The notes below the pieces were generated by a model. It saw only the letters and a program-made list of their open reading frames with translations. It did no database searches and had not been told where the DNA came from. The translations under genes and the position numbers were made by a program. Shown here piece after piece: positions 5,785-7,536 of a stretch of DNA of 56,736 nucleotides; the stretch's first letter is position 1; each line of letters opens with the position of its first letter. The stretch lies in the NCBI GenBank assembly GCA_944323735.1, contig CALUTO010000014.1:1-56736 (forward strand), given 5' to 3'. The DNA comes from Candidatus Gastranaerophilales bacterium (GTDB lineage Bacteria; Cyanobacteriota; Vampirovibrionia; Gastranaerophilales; Gastranaerophilaceae).

Positions 5785-5810
5785 TAAAAAGTCGTTTCAA
5801 TGTGTAAATA

Positions 5811-5852
5811 TTGACTTTACAAAATTGCATATTTATATTGAAATAGTATAAT
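5811..5852 (+). promoter_or_regulatory. Promoter region for acpP, two overlapping candidates
   Basis: TTGACT (5811-5816), 17 bases, TATATT (5834-5839) forms one good promoter. A second, TTGCAT (5825-5830) with 16 bases to TATAAT (5847-5852), overlaps it. Either gives acpP its own short leader with a GAGG ribosome site. An added internal promoter makes sense because acyl carrier protein is needed in far greater amounts than the enzymes around it. Confidence 0.65.
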
Positions 5853-5897
5853 AAATAGTGAAAATGAGTAGTTAATTTAAAATGAGGTAGAAAAAAC

Positions 5898-6131
5898 ATG
5901 AGTACAGTTCTTGAGAGAGTTAAAAAAGTTGTTGTTGAACAATTGAGTGTTGATGAAGCATTAGTTACTCCCGAAGCTAGCTTTACAGGAGATCTCGGTG
6001 CTGATTCGCTTGATACAGTTGAATTAGTTATGGCTTTTGAAGATGAATTCGGATGCGAAATTCCTGATGAAGAAGCTGAAAAAATCGCAACTGTTCAAGA
6101 TGCTGTAAACTACATAGAAGCTCATTCATAA
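5898..6131 (+). CDS. acpP: Acyl carrier protein
   Basis: 77 residues, the standard ACP length, and strongly acidic. Ser37 in GADSLDTVE is the site for the 4'-phosphopantetheine arm added by AcpS. The helix II sequence after it ([11 protein letters not shown]) and [10 protein letters not shown] are classic. It carries the growing acyl chain for FabH, FabD, FabG and FabF, all encoded nearby, and donates acyl groups to PlsX. It has its own promoter region upstream. Confidence 0.98.
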
Positions 6132-6154: not shown

Positions 6155-6252
6155 ATTTGCGGGGGGTTGGTCAGGTTTTGTTCTTTTATGAACGATTATT
6201 GTACAAATGTATAATTTGTTTGCCTGTTGCTCCTCGCAAATTTTTACCAACC
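6155..6252 (+). ncRNA. Structured RNA element in the acpP-fabF intergenic region (fabF leader)
   Basis: An 11-bp stem (6155-6165 with 6231-6241, two G-U pairs) encloses a CAGG/CCTG stem (6172-6175 with 6223-6226) and two hairpins (6180-6183/6190-6193 and 6203-6208/6214-6219). GGTTGGT (6165-6171) in the internal loop is complementary to ACCAACC (6246-6252) beyond the main stem, a pseudoknot arrangement. The main stem is followed by five T's. The fabF ribosome site AAGG lies only about 12 bases downstream. Complementarity is read directly; function as a cis-regulator of fabF, or as a processed small RNA, is inference. I do not match it to a known family. Confidence 0.5.
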
Positions 6253-6279
6253 GGAATAGAATAAAGGTATAAGTTAAAA

Positions 6280-7536
6280 ATGAACAAAAGAAGAGTAGTT
6301 GTCACCGGAATGGGTATCGTTTCTCCTTTCGGCGTTGGACTGGAAAAATTTTGGAATAGTTTATTGGAAGGGAAAAGCGGTATTTCGACAATTGAACGTA
6401 TTCCTCTTGAAGGACATACTGTTCATATTGCCGGAGAAGTAAAGGACTTTAATCCTGAAGAATATATTGATCCAAAAGAAGCAAGAAGAATGGACAGATA
6501 TAATCAGTTTGCAATGGTTGCAGCTGATGAGGCGATAAAAGATTCCGGAATAATAGCCGGTCAAAATGTTGATCCTTACAGATACGGCGTTATTGTAGGT
6601 TCAGCTGCAGGCGGTTTTGATACTTTTGAAAAACAGCATGACATTATTACGGCTAAAGGCCCAACGAAATGTTCTCCTTTTACTGTTCCTATGATTATTG
6701 CAGATATGGGTGCCGGCAGAATTTCTATTAAGCATGGAGCAAAAGGAGTTAACAAAGCAGTTGTTACTGCTTGTGCTACTTCTGCGCATTCAGTCGGCGA
6801 TGCTTTTCGTTCTATACAGTGGGATGATGCCGATGTTATTGTGGCAGGCGGTGCAGAGGCTGTTATCACAAAACTCGGTATTGGTGCATTTACCAGTGCA
6901 CGTACTCTTTCAAAACACAATGACGAGCCGCAAAAAGCTTCAAGACCATACGACAAAGACCGTGATGGTTTTATTATGTCAGAAGGAGCAGCTGTTTTAA
7001 TTCTTGAAGAATTGGAACATGCTAAAAAACGCGGTGCAAAAATTTATGCGGAAATTGTCGGTTATGGTCAAACTGCTGATGCGTATGATATTGTTGCGCC
7101 TGCTGCAGATGGTGCCGGTGCTGCAAAAGCGATGGAGCTTGCTGTACAAGATGCAGGTATAAAACCGGAACAAGTTGACTATGTAAATGCTCATGGTACA
7201 AGTACAGGTCTTGGTGATATAGCTGAATCACAGGCAATTGCAAGAGTGTTCGGCGATTTGGATAAAAATCCGCATCTCAAAGTAAGTTCAACAAAATCTA
7301 TGCATGGGCATATGCTTGGTGCTACAGGTGCTGCTGAATCTATTGTTTGCATAGAGGTTATTAATAACGGAATTATTCCGCCCACAATAAATCTTGATAA
7401 TCAGGATGAAGCTGTTGCAAACCTGAACTATGTTCCGCATAAAGCACAGAAAGCCGAAGTCAAATATGCTTTAACAAATTCATTCGGTTTTGGCGGACAT
7501 AACGCTTCTATTCTGTTCAAAAAATATGAAGCTTAG
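6280..7536 (+). CDS. fabF: Beta-ketoacyl-ACP synthase II
   Basis: 418 residues. FabF elongates acyl-ACP with malonyl-ACP. The Cys-His-His triad is present: Cys165 in TACATSAHS, His305 in NAHGTSTGLGD and His344 in SMHGHMLGATG. The C terminus NSFGFGGHNAS is typical. It closes the fatty acid block and is followed by a strong terminator. No fabZ, fabI/K or acc genes lie in the window, so the dehydratase, enoyl reductase and acetyl-CoA carboxylase must be elsewhere. A structured leader precedes it. Confidence 0.97.
   Translation: MNKRRVVVTGMGIVSPFGVGLEKFWNSLLEGKSGISTIERIPLEGHTVHIAGEVKDFNPEEYIDPKEARRMDRYNQFAMVAADEAIKDSGIIAGQNVDPYRYGVIVGSAAGGFDTFEKQHDIITAKGPTKCSPFTVPMIIADMGAGRISIKHGAKGVNKAVVTACATSAHSVGDAFRSIQWDDADVIVAGGAEAVITKLGIGAFTSARTLSKHNDEPQKASRPYDKDRDGFIMSEGAAVLILEELEHAKKRGAKIYAEIVGYGQTADAYDIVAPAADGAGAAKAMELAVQDAGIKPEQVDYVNAHGTSTGLGDIAESQAIARVFGDLDKNPHLKVSSTKSMHGHMLGATGAAESIVCIEVINNGIIPPTINLDNQDEAVANLNYVPHKAQKAEVKYALTNSFGFGGHNASILFKKYEA

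Follow-up and report, generated by a model that had tools for sequence, protein, structure and literature searches.

The window, that is, the whole stretch of 56,736 nucleotides analysed from a Candidatus Gastranaerophilales bacterium, carries a series of genes that we take, from their protein sequences, to be plsX, fabH, fabD, a small ORF, fabG, acpP and fabF, in that order. The last two are codirectional and separated by a gap of 148 nt, which holds the hairpin described here (Table 1). Homologues of acpP adjoin fabF in Gastranaerophilales loci, acyl carrier protein (ACP) matches were found in 111 of 117 genomes of the phylum, and the fabF homologues in 80 loci, for the most part from genomes named as Gastranaerophilales, were 70-98% identical. 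The preceding fabG-acpP gap (5785-5897) contains a promoter-like TTGACT-17-TATATT at 5811-5839 and a TATAAT at 5847-5852. These sites, whose number is no higher than chance, plausibly fit a separate acpP promoter, which would push in the same direction as we propose below for the hairpin, namely ACP over FabF.

Table 1. Features of the acpP-fabF region, in window coordinates.
Feature	Position	Strand	Basis or remark
acpP, acyl carrier protein, 77 aa, upstream of the hairpin	5898-6131	+	ORF list
Outer stem, 5' arm (ATTTGCGGGGGGT)	6155-6167	+	MFE and centroid fold; kept in 4/4 species of the genus; covariation across related genera
Proposed pseudoknot, 5' strand (GGTTGGT)	6165-6171	+	Pairing not conserved: two C.A mismatches in 3/3 sister species
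Branched apex, genus-specific	6172-6226	+	MFE fold
Inner stem of apex	6172-6176/6222-6226	+	MFE fold
First apical hairpin	6178-6183/6190-6195 (spans 6178-6195)	+	MFE fold
Second apical hairpin	6198-6204/6209-6215 (spans 6198-6215)	+	MFE fold
Outer stem, 3' arm (GCTCCTCGCAAAT)	6229-6241	+	Fold, genus conservation and covariation, as for the 5' arm
T run at stem end (TTTTT)	6241-6245	+	Sequence, tail counts
Proposed pseudoknot, 3' strand (ACCAACC)	6246-6252	+	Pairing not conserved
fabF, 3-oxoacyl-ACP synthase II, downstream of the hairpin	6280-7536	+	ORF list

An earlier sequence-only reading had described an 11-bp closing stem, an inner stem and two hairpins ahead of fabF, followed by a T run. 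The closing stem lies where it was placed but is longer, at 13 bp with G-U pairs included (helix energy, -18.6 kcal/mol), while the inner stem and both hairpins appear in the predicted fold and the T run is present as described. The minimum free energy of positions 6155-6253 was -33.1 kcal/mol (z = -4.79), a value equalled by none of 200 shuffles, and the predicted fold leaves the fabF ribosome-binding region free. Directly 3' of the stem stands TTTT and then ACCAACC, so that four of the eight tail bases are T; this mediocre tract (AAATTTTTACC) falls below a classic one and resembles those of other hairpins of the same genome. Owing to its loop of about 61 nt, the element went unscored in a simple terminator scan.

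We compared 80 distinct acpP-fabF gaps, extracted from fabF loci of Gastranaerophilales, with a control set of 28 fabG-acpP gaps that these loci also provided. A stem was present in all 80, and it was strong (a helix of -10 kcal/mol or below) in 97% of them as against 25% of the controls. The best uninterrupted helix had a median of -17.2 kcal/mol in the acpP-fabF gaps and -7.8 kcal/mol in the fabG-acpP gaps, and the mean folding z was -3.16 versus -1.18. The hairpin started 27 nt past the acpP stop and ended 34 nt ahead of fabF (medians). Most gaps held a plain hairpin with a T-rich yet imperfect tail (median 4 T per 8 nt, up to 7). Its sequence diverged widely among genera (TTGCGGGGAG..., AAGACTGCAAA..., TGCGAGAGTGAGA..., AAAAAGTTGCAA...). 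Three genomes from another family of the class had plain hairpins of 12-13 bp in the same gap, and farther out in the phylum several members had short gaps or no clear hairpin. In one other Gastranaerophilales group (loci L032-L044 and L082) the hairpin takes the form CAAAAAAGTTGCAA..TTTGTAACTTTTTG and encloses an inner stem, GAT..ATC; its sequence hardly changes from species to species, in contrast to the free variation of the hairpins in other groups.

Among the genera nearest the window the stem could be aligned, and 12 pairs were compared. Two-sided changes occurred at 5 of these pairs, in 9 cells (shuffled means, 2.1 and 2.6), and depending on the measure between 0 and 7 of 500 shuffles showed as much compensatory change. 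Since the stem arms were chosen by anchors within the stem, pairing is somewhat favoured in the further comparison, in which 88% of cells in the aligned stem were paired versus 45-61% for slid partners. The covariation score was 0.233, against 0.121 in shuffles (none of 500 as high). At alignment column 8/17, for example, a G-C pair is replaced by A-U in the sister species and by G-U in the window species. These data indicate that the outer stem is kept through compensatory change and not through its sequence.

The same relatives bear on a 7-base complement, GGTTGGT/ACCAACC, which the sequence-only reading had proposed to pair across the main stem as a pseudoknot. The complement is present in the window species, where it competes with the outer stem for 3 bp at the top, and mononucleotide shuffling of the stretches compared yields a Watson-Crick complement of this length in about 7% of cases. 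In the other three species, GGTCGGC faces ACCAACC or ATCAACC, so that two of seven positions are left unpaired (C.A), and the GGC pairs within the inner stem instead (GGCTA/TAGCC). The estimated energy of the pseudoknot helix rises from -9.9 kcal/mol in the window species to -3.3 or -0.5 kcal/mol in the other three, all of which retain the full 13 outer pairs within nearly identical flanks. Cross-stem complements in relatives reach lengths of 4-5, the background level, and a linker of 4 nt across a 13-bp stem would be sterically tight. Because two of the seven pairs are mismatched in close relatives whose flanks are kept, the pseudoknot is unsupported as a conserved feature; on these mismatches, the background complement lengths and the chance rate of about 7% we rejected it.

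Only the window's genus, represented by four species, showed the branched apex. Full-length sequence matches to the element were likewise confined to the genus, with none in other genera beyond three marginal partial matches (E about 5e-4). Within the genus the inner stem of relatives sits in a shifted register, and the second apical hairpin is largely lost in one species (G001). At loci whose FabF is 87-94% identical the loop usually measures 10 to 25 nt, and the branched apex looks like a loop expansion of an ordinary hairpin; we treat it as a loop elaboration in this genus and assign it no separate function. A TATAAT at 6210-6215 lies inside the second apical hairpin (6198-6216); of the other three species two share it and G001 has lost it. 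It may give fabF a weak start site within the operon.

To set the hairpin against others of its genome, genes were called with a simple ORF caller on the window and on a further 400 kb of that genome. Hairpins of -12 kcal/mol or below with similar T tails stood at 50% of convergent gene ends versus 28% of the gaps between codirectional genes. In this sample about 10% of codirectional gaps held an equally strong helix, and the element is therefore unexceptional by strength. Searched against the whole genome, the Rho RNA-binding domain had no match and the full Rho model gave only weak partial matches far below the cut-off, which are probably related ATPases; the lineage therefore seems to be without Rho. 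Rho is likewise reported to be absent in cyanobacteria (PMC13289151). Internal terminators whose GC-rich stems are longer and whose U content is lower are reported to raise the transcripts of the upstream gene in Clostridia (PMC9045158). Given hairpins at gene ends in this genome, no detected Rho and the internal terminators of Clostridia, partial termination and/or 3'-end protection is the simplest account.

We therefore favour the reading that the element is probably a terminator-like hairpin inside the operon, part of the acpP 3' untranslated end, and would act by partial termination and/or protection of the 3' end. RNA polymerase would terminate in part at the acpP-fabF hairpin, and/or the hairpin would halt 3' exonucleases following termination or cleavage. 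Short, stable acpP messages would then build up, while a minority of transcripts would read through into fabF. ACP is known for its high abundance, and from this abundance together with the proposed mechanism we infer that ACP would be raised over FabF, the hairpin setting the ACP:FabF ratio. The suggestion that the element is an attenuator thus comes close, provided that it is taken to mean a leaky terminator, or a 3'-end hairpin, that works constitutively and not as a regulated switch. The stem is real and conserved, ordinary in kind, and does not constitute a new RNA class. Our literature search returned no paper describing this RNA or any RNA motif in Gastranaerophilales.

The nearest competitor is an SRPS processing hairpin at the 3' end of acpP, inside the operon, which we hold to be possible but rather unlikely. 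SRPS involves stem-loops at the 3' ends of selected operon genes (PMC4423207, PMC8219983), and many Gastranaerophilales tails are poor as U tracts (e.g. TTATTTAT). Against this, most tails are rich in T (a median of 4 in 8 bases, at most 7), and the terminators of several relatives come near the classic form, as where a T run follows a GACTGC...GCAGTC stem. The two accounts are inseparable by sequence alone, as a processing or stabilising hairpin acting without termination would show identical sequence features.

Far less probable is a pseudoknotted riboswitch or attenuator special to the genus and sensing a ligand or ACP, although the branched apex is common to the four species and absent in other genera and the window species does carry the 7-base complement. 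Three of the four species lack an intact pseudoknot, the register of the inner stem is shifted, and one species has lost most of the second hairpin. Moreover, no competing antiterminator fold was found, the fabF ribosome-binding region is not sequestered, and Rfam gave no match at the gathering score, a relaxed threshold returning only chance-level hits. The earlier proposal of a lipid- or ACP-sensing RNA also finds no conserved primary-sequence core, and in nearly every relative a plain hairpin occupies this position. We are equally doubtful that the genus' branched apex of about 60 nt, set on an ancestral plain hairpin, renders a leaky terminator responsive to a protein or metabolite connected with fatty acid synthesis; the apex would there consist of the inner stem and one or two hairpins, with the pseudoknot in one species.

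An internal fabF promoter within the apex, built on the TATAAT at 6210-6215, is just as improbable. The motif is retained in three of four species, and for E. coli known internal promoters have been listed ahead of both acpP and fabF (PMC1779546), but the motif has been lost in G001 and stands outside the scored promoter-like sites because it has no acceptable -35 element; such a promoter would also leave the conserved outer stem unexplained. Least probable of all is an independent small RNA, as had also been suggested, or an acpP 3' end released as one: a stable fragment might be released from a 3'-UTR hairpin that carries a T run, but nothing specific speaks for it, the acpP-fabF gap contains no scored promoter-like site, the genome has no further copy beyond short chance-like matches, and the sequence is unconserved outside the genus.

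The reading of the element as a leaky terminator or 3'-end hairpin can be set beside known systems. With SRPS it has in common a 3'-UTR stem-loop of a selected operon gene, cleavage at the acpP-fabF hairpin being putative. In E. coli MG1655 (NC_000913.3) the same gap between the same genes holds a GC-rich hairpin of 9 bp, CAGGCGGTC-GTTC-GACCGCCTG with the T-rich tail AGTTTTATCTTTTT, 11 nt past the acpP stop; it differs from the window's in being perfect and short, with a 4-nt loop and an unrelated sequence. That the gap keeps a hairpin at one position throughout Gastranaerophilales, and has one in E. coli too, while the sequence varies freely, is what would be expected if a fixed ratio of ACP to condensing enzyme were under selection, a modest point on operon stoichiometry in a lineage without detected Rho. 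A close parallel is offered by the internal terminators of Ruminiclostridium, which lie downstream of substrate-binding-protein genes and set gene stoichiometry (PMC9045158). Shared with these are an upstream gene needed in abundance, a neighbour in the same operon, a long GC-rich stem and a reduced U tract, whereas the element described here belongs to another operon and lineage and bears, in this genus, a branched apex of about 60 nt.
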